DNA from: Pseudozyma flocculosa PF-1
Lineage: Eukaryota; Basidiomycota; Ustilaginomycetes; Ustilaginales; Ustilaginaceae
NCBI RefSeq assembly: GCF_000417875.1
Contig: NW_006920872.1
Coordinates: 921,026 to 969,281 of the forward strand
DNA length: 48,256 nt
Direction: 5' to 3'
Positions 14,528 through 21,479 of the stretch are shown here, piece by piece. How positions within the stretch are numbered: the stretch's first letter is position 1; each line of letters opens with the position of its first letter. Both the position numbers and the translations under genes were made by a program. The notes under the pieces were generated by a model that saw nothing but the letters and a program-made list of their open reading frames with translations, ran no database searches and was not told the origin of the DNA.

Positions 14528-14566
14528 GGTGGTGGTGGTGGTGGTGGTGGTGGTGGTGGTGGTGGT
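14528..14566. repeat. (GGT)13 microsatellite
   Basis: Thirteen perfect GGT triplets in the shared promoter of the DCAF7-like gene and MED1. It is immediately preceded by a short mixed TCG/TCT tract. Likely length-variable between strains. Confidence 0.95.
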
Positions 14567-14728
14567 AGCAGAATACACTCAGCAGGGGCCAGAGGGGTGC
14601 GTTACGTTGGTGCAAGACGGCGAGAGGCAAGGTGGCTGGAGATCCCTAGCCTTAATGTTTGGCCTGCCGTGGACCGCTCTCGCAGGTGGGCTGCCAGCCC
14701 CAACGCACGGTGCAGCCCTCTGTCGAGC

Positions 14729-14773
14729 CTGTCTGGCCTGTCTGGCCTGTCTGGCCTGGCTGGCCTGGCTGCC
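14729..14773. repeat. 9-bp tandem repeat CTGTCTGGC
   Basis: Three perfect copies of CTGTCTGGC are followed by two degenerate copies (CTGGCTGGC and CTGGCTGCC), about 200 bp upstream of the MED1 start. It shares the TGGCC core seen in other intergenic repeats here. Confidence 0.85.
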
Positions 14774-14971
14774 TGGTTGGCCCGCCCGCGTATGGCCCAG
14801 CCCGGCCCCGGCTCCGAGGGAAAATGTGGAGAGAACATCGAGGCCGGCAGACCTTCCAACGCCGTGCCTGGAACTGGCCCTGGCCATCTTCATGCCTTTG
14901 CTTGGGGCTCTCGCCAGCACCACCATCGTTCATCCCCTCCTGGCCTGGCCCCCACCTCGCGCCCGCGCAGC

Positions 14972-17746
14972 ATGGACACATCCAACAAGGCTCCGATACC
15001 GGCATCTTCGGCATCCGTGCCGCCGCCGCCGCCGCCAACAGGCAGCGCCAATGGAGGTGGCACAGCATCGGGAGAGCCGCACCTGCCCGTCTCTGCGGAT
15101 GCTCTTCCCTCTGCCACTGCCGGACAGGCTACGGAAGGGACCGACCAGACCGCCGCCGCTGCTTCTACTAATTCTGCTGCCTCTGCAGCTGGTGCCGACA
15201 CCGCCTTCGCCGCTGCCCATTCGGCCCATGCCGCCCTCGCGGCGAAGTCGGCCGGGCCGAGCCGACTACATCTCCTCAGCTCATCAGTCCACAGCCTCTA
15301 CGGCGCGGCGGCAGACTCCCGCAGTCACGGCGGCGACCAAGCAGCCTCAACCAGCGACGCAGTTCGCGCGGATGCACCGCCATCCTCTGCACCCGTTTCG
15401 TCTCCGGACACAAGTCTCTCGCGCCAGCAGTTCCACTCTCTCGTCGCCCAGATCCGTCAGGCCGCCGCCAACTTTGCCCAGACCAGCCCTGCTTTCTCCC
15501 AGCAGTCCTCAGCCCAGCAGATGCCCTCTCAGCCATCGCAGCTGCTGCAGCCTCCCTCTCTCGAAGCTTCGGCGACCTCCAACGCGGTGAGACGCTACGT
15601 CTCGCTCCTCGCAGAGACGTCCAAGCACATCGCCGAGCTGCGTCACTCGATCGATTCCTTTTCCCCCGTGGCCGCGCCTCGGACAAACGACCGCGTCTCC
15701 TCGTCGGCCATGTCCGTCAGCTTGGCCCGTCTACGCTCCTTGGCCGCGTCAAAGGACGTCTCGGGACATCCGGACAAGGCCACCGAGGCCCTCGATGCCC
15801 TGTGCACCGCCCTCGAGGCCCATGCCCGCGCCCTCGGCCTCGAGACCTTCGCAGAACGTGCAGAGCAGACGCAGACCCAGCCCTCGTCCAGCACGCGACC
15901 CGCAGAGACGCTCGTGCATACCCTCACAATCGGTGCAAAGATCCTCGTCATCGACGTCGAGCTCGCCGTCCAGCGGCAGGACACTGATGCCACTCTCCGA
16001 CCCGTCGTCCGTCTCAAGCTGTCATACGCCAACGACGCCGACCACGCCTCGCCAAGCAGGGACCCGGCACTGGCAGACCTGCTACAGAGAGACGTCCAAT
16101 CTGCGGCCGACTTGCTCTTCGGTGTCGATGAGGAGCGGCAGCGACAGCAGCATCAGCAGCAGAGGTGCCCATCCGCTCGCATCGCCGACTGCTTTGTGCG
16201 CCTCGGTGCCAACCTCGAGGCTCTGCTGCACTTTGACGAGGTGGCAGCTCAGGTGCACGAGGCAGGCCCCGCGGCCGAAGTCGATGTCTTTGATGCTCTG
16301 CAGCAGCTCAGCTCGCAGGTGTATCGAGTCGCCGAGGCAGAGAGGCAGGACGCCGCCCTGGCCGCTTCGGCGTCCGGCAGCACCGAGGCCGCGGCGGAGC
16401 GACGGCTGCTCGAGCGTGGCCACGGAATCGCATCCGTCCACCGGGCCCGCCCCTTCCTCGAGGTCGTGTATGCCCGCGACGAGGTGTGCCAGGTCGACTA
16501 TCGGCTCAGCCTCGGCGTCGGTGCTCTCGACTTGGGCGCCGAATCCTCGCCATCCGACGCATCGTCCGGCCCGTCGTGGTCCATGGGCAGCAGGGCGCTG
16601 GCCGCGCTCCAAGAGGCCCAGGCCGGCATGGACCCGTCCTCGAAGCTGGGCAGCGTCAGGCGGGGCGCGTCCACCGTACCAGTCCGCTTCATCGCGCAGC
16701 TCGACCCGCCCGTCGTCGTCACACGAGCCACCGCCGCCAAGCTGGCGAGCATCTGCCGACTGCCCGGCAGTACAAAGACGGTGGCTGCCTCATCCCTCGG
16801 CGGCTCGAACTCCCAGCCCGCCTCGTCAGCGGATGGCGCAGTGTGGTTCGAAGACGTCCTGGCATCGGCGTGGGCGCAGCGGCCGACTGCTCCGTCCGCA
16901 AGCGACTACCTGCCTCGCTGCTCATTCACCCTGGCGCGCACACCCGACAGCTTGCGCGACCCCAAGTCGCAGGGCCTCATTGTCGATGCGCTGCCCTTGA
17001 TGTGCTCCGGGCCTGTCTCGAACGAAGCTGGTGCCTCGGGCGCAGATGCGATGGACGTCGACCAAGGCGCATCATCGGCTGCCAGCACTGCAGCCCGTCT
17101 GTTTGCGGCCATCGAGACGCTCCGGGACGAGGTCAGGACAACCGAGCTGGCTCACTCGGCGCTGTCCAGCAACCAGGACGACCCGGGCGCCACGACGGCT
17201 CCTGCTGCCGAGCCGACCCTCGACGAGCTCCTGGGCGATGCTGCGCCGCCTTCGGGTCCGGCCAAGATCCCAGTCGTCATCAGCTGGCGAGGCCCTGTGG
17301 CGAGCGCCACCGCAGATCCGGCGTCGACCGCTGAGCCGCCACAGCCCCTGCTGATGGACCTCGGCTTCGGCGTTGCGGCGCACCGTTCAGCGCAAGCTGG
17401 CCGATCGCACCTCGACATGCAGGTGACTGTCAGCCCCGCCGCACCCTCATCGCCAGATGCCGCCTGGAGAGTCGAGGTGACTTCCGTGCTGCGCGGCGCA
17501 GATCCCCCTGCGCAGACCAAGAAGCTGGCCGCCGACGATCCGGCGGCACAGCAGCTGGCGGCTCAGTTGTCGCAGGCCGGGGCGGCCAGCGGGCTCGAGG
17601 CGCTCGATCGGATCGTCGTGATGGCCCTGGAGTGGGCCCAGGCGCAGCTTGGCGTCCAGGCCGAGATCCCAGCACCGCCGTCCGCCGGGAAGAACGACGG
17701 CGGCTTTGACCCTTCGGCGTACGAGGAGCAGAACGTGCACGCGTGA
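14972..17746 (+). CDS. MED1: Mediator complex subunit 1 (frame runs on into TRM9)
   Basis: Middle-module subunit of the RNA polymerase II Mediator. A single open frame from ATG 14972 (MDTSNKAP) gives 924 residues if it stops at TGA 17744. About 170 low-complexity residues are followed by a helical block (VRRYVSLLAETSKHIAELRHS). Then comes the Med1-type core: LGLETFAERAEQ, TLTIGAKILVIDVEL, VVRLKLSYANDADHA, DPALADLLQRDVQ, and later RARPFLEVVYA and RFIAQLDPPVVVTRA. The family call rests on these motifs by eye. Oddity: the last residues, SAYEEQNVHA, belong to the TRM9 N-terminus, and the stop codon is the TGA inside the GTGAGT donor at 17743. Without intron retention no stop exists between MED1 and TRM9. 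The fused product would be 1315 residues. Confidence 0.75.
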   Translation: MDTSNKAPIPASSASVPPPPPPTGSANGGGTASGEPHLPVSADALPSATAGQATEGTDQTAAAASTNSAASAAGADTAFAAAHSAHAALAAKSAGPSRLHLLSSSVHSLYGAAADSRSHGGDQAASTSDAVRADAPPSSAPVSSPDTSLSRQQFHSLVAQIRQAAANFAQTSPAFSQQSSAQQMPSQPSQLLQPPSLEASATSNAVRRYVSLLAETSKHIAELRHSIDSFSPVAAPRTNDRVSSSAMSVSLARLRSLAASKDVSGHPDKATEALDALCTALEAHARALGLETFAERAEQTQTQPSSSTRPAETLVHTLTIGAKILVIDVELAVQRQDTDATLRPVVRLKLSYANDADHASPSRDPALADLLQRDVQSAADLLFGVDEERQRQQHQQQRCPSARIADCFVRLGANLEALLHFDEVAAQVHEAGPAAEVDVFDALQQLSSQVYRVAEAERQDAALAASASGSTEAAAERRLLERGHGIASVHRARPFLEVVYARDEVCQVDYRLSLGVGALDLGAESSPSDASSGPSWSMGSRALAALQEAQAGMDPSSKLGSVRRGASTVPVRFIAQLDPPVVVTRATAAKLASICRLPGSTKTVAASSLGGSNSQPASSADGAVWFEDVLASAWAQRPTAPSASDYLPRCSFTLARTPDSLRDPKSQGLIVDALPLMCSGPVSNEAGASGADAMDVDQGASSAASTAARLFAAIETLRDEVRTTELAHSALSSNQDDPGATTAPAAEPTLDELLGDAAPPSGPAKIPVVISWRGPVASATADPASTAEPPQPLLMDLGFGVAAHRSAQAGRSHLDMQVTVSPAAPSSPDAAWRVEVTSVLRGADPPAQTKKLAADDPAAQQLAAQLSQAGAASGLEALDRIVVMALEWAQAQLGVQAEIPAPPSAGKNDGGFDPSAYEEQNVHA

Positions 17747-19441
17747 GTAGGCAGACCATCGCATGGCGAGGCGGCAGGCAGGAGGGGTGAGGTACGGTTC
17801 CGGCGGCGGTGTAGTAGCCCCTTGCTCGCAATCGAATCGCCATCGAAGCTCACAAAGCTGATACCCTCGAACTGCCTCCTTCGACCGCTGCTGTGACTGA
17901 TTCCTGTCGCCGCGTGCCACGCTGTCCGTGCCATTATTCTCGCTCTTCCGAGCAGCGTCTACGAAACGATCGCGCCTCACTTCTCGAGCACACGGTACAA
18001 GGTGAGCCTCTCGGACCCCTCCGATCCCTCTGCAACGCAAGCATAGTTCCGGAGCTGACTCCGTCACCCGGGCCTTTGTCTCCTTGCCCTCGCACGGTAG
18101 CCCTGGCCATTGATCCCGCTCTTCATGTCGACGTTGCCCGCTGGGAGTATTGGTGCAGACCTTGGATGCGGGAACGGAAAGTACCTCCCCATTCGATCCA
18201 TGCTCGCACAGTCGTCCGACGTTGCGGCGGCTCGAGACACCATCGCGGCGGACTCTTCGCCAAACAGCCTCCTGACCATCGGCGTGGATCGGTCGTCGAA
18301 CCTGCTCAGCCTCGCGCAGACCAACTTTGGCCAAGATGCTGCCGTTGGAAAGGATGTTGACAGGACGGACGCGGCGCCTTCGCCGCCACGACGCCTCCAC
18401 GAAGTCGCGGTCGGCGACGCGATGATGAGCGGTCTGAGGACCGGAGTATTTGTGAGTCGATGTACTGCCATCTTGCGAGACGGAGCGATCCCGCTGACCG
18501 CTTCCTTTCGGGCCCTCATCCGCCGGAACTCTCTCATTCTCCCTGGGCGATACGACCAGGACTATGCCATCAGCATCGCAACAATCCACCACTTCTCGAC
18601 GTGGGAGCGGAGAGCCAAGGCGGTACAGGAGCTCATCCGACTTGTACAGCCAGTCGCTTCTGCTCCGACCGCGTCCGCCTCTCCACCCGAGGCCGAGGAC
18701 GAGGCATCGATCCGGCTCAATGGCGGACGAGGCGCGGGACGATTCATGATCTTCGCGTGGGCCCTCGAGCAAAAGGACGAGGGCAAGCGGCAGTTTGAGG
18801 GCATCGCAAAGGGAGGGGCGGAAGCGGCGGAACGCAAGAGCAAGGAGAGACTCGTCTCGGACAGCGGGCTGGGATCGCTGTCGAGGAGAGAGGCGTACGA
18901 GAAGAGCAGCAAGGACGCGGCCGACGAGCAGGATCTGCTTGTGCCGTGGGTGCTCACACAGCCCAAGGCCAAGAACAAGCCCCAGCACGGCAAGGGTGTG
19001 ACGGGAGAGAAGGGCAGCAGAAGAGGTGGTCGGAAAGACAAGCCAGCAGAGGCGCCGCCCGACGCGACGCGCATCGAAGACGACCTGTCCACGCTCAAGG
19101 TGGACGACAAGCCGGCCGAGGATGCCGCGCCGGCCGTGGCGGGAGCTGCTCCCGTCTACCAACGATGTGAGTCGCATCGTGCTCTCGCTCTCGGTATCTC
19201 TCGGCTTCGAGGCGCTGACCCCGCGAGGCCTGTCCTGCTCCGACCTTCACGCTCGCTCGCTCGCGCAGACTACCACGTTTTCCGATCCGGCGAGCTCGAG
19301 GCGCTCGTGGAAGCGGCAGGCGAGGCGATGCCCGTGGTTCACCGGCGCAACGGCCAGCTGGCCAGCATCAAGGTGATCTGCGAGGTCAGCGGCTGGGAGC
19401 GCGGCAACTGGTGGGGCATCTGGAGGGTCGAGTGGGCCTAG
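17621..19441 (+). CDS. TRM9: tRNA wobble-uridine carboxymethyl methyltransferase
   Basis: SAM-dependent methyltransferase that completes mcm5U at the tRNA wobble position, acting with TRM112. Exons are ?-17742, 17956-18001 (46 nt), 18101-18451, 18560-19166 and 19269-19441; every phase fits. Splicing rebuilds YEEQNVHAVYETIAPHF, then SSTRYKPWPLIPLF, ADLGCGNGKYL (SAM motif I), TIGVDRS, VAVGDAM, DYAISIATIHHFST, GRFMIFAWALEQ, DLLVPWVL, QRYYHVFRSGELE and a closing ERGNWWGIWRVEW. All are TRM9 hallmarks. The first exon lies inside the MED1 frame and shares its phase. The nearest in-frame Met is at 17621, giving 432 residues. The start is therefore unresolved: nested promoter, or a MED1-TRM9 fusion. 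IPK1 follows 254 bp downstream on the same strand. Confidence 0.9.
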
Positions 19442-19695: not shown

Positions 19696-21479
19696 ATGCC
19701 GCCAACGCCGTTCCAGCCCTCGCACAGCACGCCGTTCAAGTCGACGCTGTCGAGTTCCGTCCAGCCCGCGCATCTCCATACGCCCTATACCGGCGCCACC
19801 GCATCCTCGTCTGCAGCCGGGACCGATGCGCCGCTCAAGCTGTCCGAACTAGATGCCAGGGACTGGAGCTACCATGCCGAAGGCGGGCTCAACCTCCTCC
19901 TCCGGTACACGCCGTTCAATGGCACAGCCAAGGGCAAGGGCCCTGGCGGACGGTGGCAGGGCAAGGCGTTGAGGCTCGTCAAGGTCCCCCGCGCGTCGTC
20001 TGCCCCTGACTCGCAGCCCAACGGCAACATGAGCGGGACGAGCGGAAACGACGAGGAAAAAGAAGAGGAGGAGGGCGAGCAATTCCGAAGAGAGGTCGTG
20101 CTGCCTCTCCTCTGCGGAGATGGCGCCCTGCTGCCTCACTCGACGCCGATCAAGGTCGAGGATGCCCGGGATCGCGCGGTGCTCGAGACGCTGGCCGCCA
20201 GGATCGAGATCCACCGCCCTAGAGAGCGGAGGCAGAAGGACGGCATCAACACCGAGGCGCACAAGGTGTGGATGATTGACGATCTGTGCTCGACGTCGAT
20301 CGCAGAGGAGCAGGTGCTCACTGTCGAGATCAAGGTGGGTTTGCCGTGCCGCCTCCACTGAACTGCGGCTGGATTCGCTGGCTGACCTTGCCGCTCATGA
20401 ACCTCTGAACGAGTGCAGCCGAAATGGGGCTACCTCCCCTCGTCGTCCTCGCTCTCGTCGATCTCTTCGCCCAACGTTGAACTCAAGACGCGCCACTCGC
20501 GCTTCAGGATGCACAAGGTCGCGCGCCATCCCGATCCTTCCTCGCTCGCTCACGCCGAGTTTGAGGGGCACTATGATCCGCTCGACCTGTACAGTTGCCA
20601 GACGGACAGGATGCAAAAAGCGCTGGATGCACTAGCGGCAGATTGGCAGCAGAGCGGAGGGACCACCAACAATCTGAGGCTGTTCTGGAACGGCGAGGTC
20701 GTCAAGCCCACCCAGGTGAGTGGCTGCAGAGCATGGCGAGGGTGCAACGTGGTTGCGGCGCAGTGGGCTCGGCGCTGACCGACACCACTGCCTCTTCTGG
20801 TGCTCTTCCTTTGACTACACAGACGGCCGAGCTGGACGAGATCAAGGCGTACCTGTCCGCTGGCACCTCGTCCGCCTCCTCGTCCGACGATCTCGCAACC
20901 CTGCTGGCCTCGCACCTCATCTCTCCCCTCGCTGCTCCACGCCTCCAATCAACATCGGACCGAGCGGAGTCAGTCCTGAGCCGACTATCGCACCTGCAAT
21001 CGGCGCTAGACCCGCGCGACATCGAGGGCCTGGCTGCAGACTGGCAACGACTCGTCTCTGCCCCACTGGGCACCGTCCCCGCCGACGCGACACCGGAGCA
21101 GGCGCAGCTGCTCCTGCCTCCGACTGTCGTAGAGGTGGCGGCCGCAATCGGCGACCCCTCACAACCCGTCGATGCTGCAGCGCCGCCGCCGTCGGCGCCG
21201 ACGACGATCGCGGAGCTGCGCCGAGCGACGCTCCGCTTCCTCGTCGCTTCGACGTTCAAGGACTGCAGCATCATGCTCCGGATCGTCCAGCCTCGAGGCG
21301 TCGATACGGCGGACGTCGACGCTGGGCCGGCGAGCAGGGAGGTGGAGATTAAGCTCATCGATCTCGACATGAAGCCGATCGGGAAGCTGGCCAAGTTTCT
21401 GCAGACGGACGAGGAGGTCATCGAGAAGTTCCGCGCATGGTGGGCCACAATCGGCGAGGGCCACAGTCGCGAGTCGTAG
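19696..21479 (+). CDS. IPK1: Inositol-pentakisphosphate 2-kinase
   Basis: Phosphorylates inositol pentakisphosphate at the 2-position to make phytate (InsP6), used in mRNA export and signalling. Exons are 19696-20334, 20419-20715 and 20823-21479, all phase 0, giving 530 residues. Family motifs in order: WSYHAEGGLNLLLRY near residue 55, where the family has an EGAANV-like nucleotide loop; VEIKPKWGYLP split exactly by intron 1 after Lys213; SRFRMH; YDPLDLYS; NLRLFWNGE; TFKDCSIMLR; and KLIDLDMKP followed by the end helix. An acidic insert (DEEKEEEEGE) sits near residue 117. The ATG is the first in frame, 254 bp after TRM9. Assignment is strong. Confidence 0.93.

Follow-up and report, generated by a model that had tools for sequence, protein, structure and literature searches.

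MED1 and TRM9 occupy a single conserved reading frame in smut fungi, consistent with a fusion of a Mediator subunit to a tRNA methyltransferase

The DNA analyzed here, a stretch of 48,256 nucleotides from Pseudozyma flocculosa PF-1 (contig NW_006920872.1, positions 921,026 to 969,281; hereafter the window), carries on its forward strand MED1, coding for a subunit of the Mediator complex, and TRM9, coding for a tRNA methyltransferase. Both genes lie in one reading frame. After removal of four introns, a single frame runs from the Met codon of MED1 through the first TRM9 exon to the end of TRM9, giving a product of 1315 residues (∼137 kDa) with a sole stop at its very end (Table 1). The MED1 frame (14972–17742) comprises 924 codons, the last of which is split by intron 1, and contains no stops, against six and seven in the other two frames over the same interval. 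An initial annotation of this DNA, made from the letters and their open reading frames, had proposed an open MED1 frame up to 17742, a phase-2 intron at 17743–17955 containing a TGA at 17744–17746, and a 1315-residue spliced product extending through TRM9; all of these were borne out.

The first half of the product was identified as MED1 by a Pfam match (PF10744, 35.4 bits against a curated cut-off of 25) and the second as Trm9 by its similarity to Yarrowia Trm9 (5cm2_Z, from the Trm9–Trm112 crystal 5cm2; E = 1.2e-22). PF10744 was matched by 24 of 70 aligned members (E ≤ 0.001), equal to the number bearing the MED1 part, and residues 4–350 of the 353-residue Tilletia TRM9 align with the C-terminal part of the fusion. 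Structure comparisons made with models of relatives gave a similar picture. For the model of a fused protein (P0014), the two best Foldseek matches were Trm9 5cm2 (E = 7.2e-15) and a human Mediator chain (E = 4.9e-7), and the top seven rows of a fold search with a MED1-only model (P0146) were chains of Mediator entries. In these models, the MED1 part is predicted to fold like the Med1 chain of Mediator and the TRM9 part as a Trm9-like class I methyltransferase. In one fold search, the 50 listed matches were filled by methyltransferases with no Mediator among them, and when solved structures were searched with a sequence profile for relatives of MED1, two photosystem matches at chance level were all that came up. 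The same genome also encodes the Trm112 partner (PF03966, 30.5 bits; cut-off 22).

The public P. flocculosa protein PSFLO_02192 (P0002) is identical to the window product letter for letter, minus 37 residues. The absent residues match an intron 2 ending at 18211 instead of 18100; they are in frame and include the S-adenosylmethionine (SAM)-binding motif DLGCGNGKY, which we take to be SAM motif I. Since this motif is carried by all 13 other public fusion records (P0003–P0015), the P0002 model is probably wrong at intron 2.

Table 1. Features of the MED1–TRM9 reading frame, in positions of the window
Feature	Position	Strand	Remarks
Exon 1: entire MED1, linker and first 13 codons of the TRM9 part	14972–17742	+	PF10744; P0002 has the same Met start
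Top-scoring MED1 Pfam stretch (residues 279–485)	15806–16426	+	PF10744
Met put forward as nested TRM9 start	17621–17623	+	Four residues ahead of a shared Trp; unconserved
Putative linker, end of MED1 fold to TRM9 N-terminus (residues 893–911)	17648–17704	+	Inference; start transferred from the P0146 model via position relative to the shared Trp
TRM9 N-terminal motif FDPSAYEEQNVHA, within exon 1	17705–17742	+	YE..NVH in 24/24 relatives; stand-alone Tilletia TRM9 aligns
Intron 1 (213 nt, phase 2)	17743–17955	+	Position apparently common to unfused TRM9 genes
TGA, read solely on intron 1 retention	17744–17746	+	
Exon 2, TRM9	17956–18001	+	
Intron 2 (99 nt)	18002–18100	+	Public model P0002 has its end at 18211
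Exon 3, TRM9	18101–18451	+	Contains SAM-binding motif
DLGCGNGKY (SAM motif)	18158–18184	+	
Intron 3 (108 nt)	18452–18559	+	
Exon 4, TRM9	18560–19166	+	
Intron 4 (102 nt)	19167–19268	+	Joins RYYH stretch, present in 5cm2 too
Exon 5, TRM9	19269–19441	+	Bears the sole stop, 19439–19441

The initial annotation had named orthologues in related smuts as a check on the fusion. A search with the fused protein, which admitted long proteins only and was thus unable to reveal a short unfused MED1, returned 21 proteins. Fourteen were Ustilaginomycetes records with MED1 and TRM9 in one chain (P0002–P0015; 1120–1366 residues), from Pseudozyma, Ustilago, Sporisorium, Moesziomyces, Melanopsichium, Testicularia, Kalmanozyma and Thecaphora frezii, the last belonging to the order Urocystidales. 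Among the other seven, P0016 is a MED1 piece, and six, which cover no more than 38% of the query, are of the ALKBH8 type, with methyltransferase plus AlkB domains. A further search was made with a MED1-only query that stops short of the TRM9 motif; here shorter proteins were admitted and the 7995 candidates sharing most words were scored. The 24 proteins listed were the same 14 plus ten more (P0016, P0143–P0151), and all ten extra sequences terminate precisely at NVHA or NVHE, the site of intron 1 in the window. A MED1 stop ahead of the TRM9 motif was present in none of the 24, and YE..NVH is read through in every one. Between the shared Trp and the motif lie 21–37 linker residues, in nine different lengths that all keep the frame; the linker sequence is variable, and the only common motif found by eye is a lysine/proline-rich stretch, present in some members of the group. 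Since the arrangement is common to all 24 related MED1 sequences listed, it is more than chance, and what these sequences encode is, as read from their letters, a true gene fusion with no separate stop or start, conserved across species. Orthologues in related smuts are predicted to be fused as well, with 14 single records spanning both parts. No stand-alone MED1 of Exobasidiomycetes or Malassezia was among the matches listed in the MED1 search.

Public names of the fusion gene are divided between both functions or are uninformative. A plain 282-residue TRM9 (P0105) is publicly named "putative component of the Mediator complex...", a name that has possibly leaked onto TRM9 from the MED1 label of the smut fusion.

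Separate TRM9 proteins with their own Met before YE..NVH were found in Tilletia, Tilletiaria, Acaromyces, Meira, Exobasidium, Malassezia yamatoensis and others. In the TRM9 search the best 120 of 1104 matches were listed; 33 of the 109 numbered P0034–P0142 (P0036 included) fit the motif pattern, all at residues 15–79 of their own protein, and the remaining 76 did not fit it. For the 24 sequences of the MED1 search, the nearest Met upstream of the motif lies 16–398 residues away: more than 100 in 18 of them and within 60 in five, where it stands in differing surroundings. The place of Met 17621, which the initial annotation had put forward as a possible nested TRM9 start, is a Met in the P. flocculosa record itself and in none of the 23 others, leaving this proposal unsupported. 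Twelve smut-like TRM9-only gene calls (P0023–P0033, P0036) have their start within intron 1 or beyond it, and the motif is absent from all of them. Since no upstream Met is common to the group and the TRM9-only calls are without the motif, the TRM9 N-terminus would be translatable only by reading on from MED1; the exceptions would be initiation at a non-AUG codon or an unseen 5′ exon. Ustilago maydis gave no record in the fused-protein, TRM9 or MED1 searches (∼8000 candidates scored in each; for TRM9, among the best 120 of 1104 matches).

No second TRM9 was found in the P. flocculosa genome with its own TRM9 piece or yeast Trm9 as the query, and no second MED1 with the MED1 protein; a Pfam MED1 family search of the genome returned nothing even at this locus and is uninformative on extra copies. 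Most likely, TRM9 exists here only as the MED1–TRM9 fusion. As no other TRM9 was found, wobble methylation would have to come from a Mediator-subunit protein, or from fragments or isoforms of it.

In a TRM9 tree restricted to Ustilaginomycotina (12 fused and 10 separate genes), the fused genes formed one group with a support of 100/98. We read the data as one fusion event in a fungus ancestral to Ustilaginales and Urocystidales, for which the tree evidence is mixed (see below). As a separate observation, the P. flocculosa fusion shows 54% identity to that of Thecaphora (Urocystidales) and 39–44% to the other 13 aligned rows, and P. flocculosa groups with Thecaphora in both TRM9 trees, in conflict with its listing under Ustilaginaceae.

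Taken together, the open and conserved frame, the lack of a MED1 stop and of a conserved TRM9 start, and the presence of both folds strongly support, at the level of DNA and protein sequence, a true Mediator–tRNA methyltransferase fusion, the first of the possibilities raised by the initial annotation. MED1 and TRM9 are very probably one fused gene and a plain working fusion. Transcription would start upstream of 14972 and intron 1 would normally be removed, yielding one polypeptide of ∼137 kDa, presumably uncut, with a MED1 core, a linker of roughly 14–19 residues and a complete Trm9 methyltransferase. The fusion probably arose in an ancestor of the sampled Ustilaginomycetes, when the MED1 stop, the downstream TRM9 start and the spacer would have been lost and the first intron of TRM9 kept. 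The Trm9 part would act with Trm112 on tRNA wobble uridines while joined to the MED1 end, and the enzyme may consequently be at least partly nuclear.

Several observations weigh against this interpretation. P0146, from Pseudozyma hubeiensis, is MED1 alone and ends at the donor stop, unlike record P0013 of P. hubeiensis SY62, which spans MED1 and TRM9; the P0146 record may reflect intron retention, or it may be a prediction. The public fusion records are themselves predictions, and predictors merge stop-free frames. The form of P0002 lacking the SAM motif may stem from an error in annotation or may be an inactive splice form; in the latter case it would speak against a working enzyme. The structural end of MED1 is based on human or mammalian chains aligned at a root-mean-square deviation of 14–16 Å across several domains, and the remaining Mediator chains align to residue 634 of the P0146 model at furthest. 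Finally, when four mushrooms and an ascomycete were added to the TRM9 tree, the fused genes were not one group, with long branches flagged; with two mushrooms, constraining the fused genes to one clade was disfavoured (p-AU 0.033), again with long branches. In the wider tree the mushrooms adjoin Testicularia, and the branch there measures 6.75 changes per column; this placement is taken as long-branch attraction yet counts against a clean single origin.

The history of intron 1 was judged from the places where gene calls of relatives break. Some of these calls open with unrelated sequence that gives way immediately to I/VYETIAPHF or its equivalent: P0023–P0026, which are smut-like, and a second set similar to unfused Exobasidiomycete TRM9s, consisting of P0048, P0055, P0057 and P0063 (assigned as fused or unfused by similarity only). 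Since these breaks point to the same place for the intron in fused and unfused genes, intron 1 appears to have been inherited from an unfused TRM9. The stop within the splice donor, which the initial annotation had singled out, is indeed present, but its significance was overstated. Every phase-2 intron whose donor is GTGA reads NNG TGA, and the donor TGA is thus no special device. Judged against the consensus, the splice sites are canonical, with a GTGAGT donor and a branch-like CTGAT that precedes the acceptor by ∼55 nt. Intron 1 was also searched for five A-rich hexamers as poly(A)-like signals and holds none of them, a weak test in a fungus.

The lengths of all four introns are divisible by three; retained intron 1 nonetheless contains in-frame stops. 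A second MED1 intron with a private stop was sought by scanning 16800–17742 for donors of the form GT[AG][AT]G, the only form covered and hence a partial test. Besides GTGAGT at 17743, the scan gave only a weak GTGTG at 16841, together with one acceptor-like site at 16810, and this candidate was rejected.

Retention of intron 1 in the fused gene would yield MED1 alone, raising the possibility of a splice switch that is compatible with the fusion: with intron 1 kept, MED1 would end with a short TRM9-derived tail at the donor TGA; with intron 1 removed, the fusion would be made, and the ratio of the two would set the share of Mediator bearing Trm9. The in-frame stop that this needs is present, no other intron of the gene is as long as intron 1, and the ten MED1 sequences without a TRM9 part all end at NVHA or NVHE, hence a stop there recurs. 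Intron retention is reported as the leading type of alternative splicing in U. maydis expressed sequence tags, with 59% of events (PMC2219887), and P0146 is annotated as MED1 alone. However, the donor stop is automatic and the intron seems to be an inheritance from unfused TRM9. Retained U. maydis introns tend toward degenerate splice sites (PMC2219887), whereas both the donor and the branch-like element of intron 1 are canonical, and the poly(A)-like hexamers were not found. We consider such a switch unlikely, though with an appreciable chance. In addition, a message with a stop followed by three further introns could undergo decay. Still less probable is that retention and removal of intron 1 form a controlled switch between Mediator with and without a covalently attached wobble-uridine methyltransferase. 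If true, RNA polymerase II output would be coupled to codon-specific translation, and the cell would contain no free Trm9.

Alternatively, the fusion could be made as one chain and then cut at the linker, so that the two proteins act apart. The variable sequence of the linker and the lower confidence of model residues 771–780 (mean predicted local distance difference test score, pLDDT, of 63) would be consistent with cutting. By eye, however, no linker motif is common beyond the partial lysine/proline-rich stretch, in a comparison that included no search for cutting signals, and we regard this course as improbable.

Overlapping genes, with a TRM9 promoter of its own inside MED1, a start at Met 17621 and MED1 ending at the TGA of the retained intron, are a very improbable arrangement. 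The ATG at 17621 is in frame and would give a 432-residue TRM9, and mushroom fungi reportedly transcribe co-transcribed neighbours independently as well (PMC4503453), but the MED1 stop would hinge on intron retention, the place of this Met is not kept in the relatives, and the closest Met before the motif is more than 100 residues off in 18 of 24 sequences.

An assembly or annotation artefact has a negligible chance and is excluded for the open frame: predictors often merge fungal gene models, but this frame is part of the DNA sequence and is seen again in 14 named records as well as nine further sequences.

The smut protein can be compared with several known systems. Stand-alone fungal Trm9, a tRNA cm5U34 methyltransferase working with Trm112, likewise has the YE..NVH N-terminus, the SAM motif and a C-terminal YYH/GW region, whereas the smut Trm9 part is attached to MED1 and has no conserved start codon of its own. 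The stand-alone MED1 of fungal and human Mediator likewise matches PF10744 and shows a Mediator-chain-like fold; smut MED1, by contrast, has no stop after its core and is followed by an enzyme, where animal MED1 has a long disordered tail (PMC4770211). Another parallel is ALKBH8 (ABH8), an animal RRM–AlkB–Trm9 fusion in which a Trm9 domain is also joined to another protein. Together with Trm112, Trm9 forms mcm5U at the wobble position of tRNA, and the Trm9 domain of ALKBH8 tolerates fusion and still requires TRMT112 (PMC5372719). The partner in ALKBH8, however, works on the same tRNA base, whereas the smut partner is a transcription coactivator subunit. In mushroom polycistronic transcripts two neighbour genes are likewise carried on one message, but the mushroom genes are also independently transcribed (PMC4503453), whereas the smut reading frames are one.

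For a domain fusion, the two partners form an unexpected pair. Mediator acts on RNA polymerase II in the nucleus, whereas Trm9 modifies tRNA and shapes codon-specific translation. Kept in two smut orders, the fusion implies a single gene dose, a single message and probably a single location for both functions. Two questions could be put to this natural test, namely if nuclear wobble-uridine methylation is possible and if an entire enzyme is tolerated at the MED1 end. The fusion also calls for caution, as a "MED1" or "TRM9" knockout in these fungi can hit both functions. No description of a MED1–TRM9 fusion was found in the open-access literature, most subscription journals lying outside the search. 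The only paper found with Med1 and Trm9 as whole words lists yeast genes only (PMC7510981), and the word Mediator is absent from a smut transcriptome paper (PMC5414199).

The fusion gene is flanked downstream by an inositol-pentakisphosphate 2-kinase gene (19696–20778; PF06090), whose ATG lies ∼255 bases past the fusion stop. Just upstream of the MED1 start, positions 14528–14782 hold a 13-copy GGT run and a 9-base tandem array (GCCTGTCTG).

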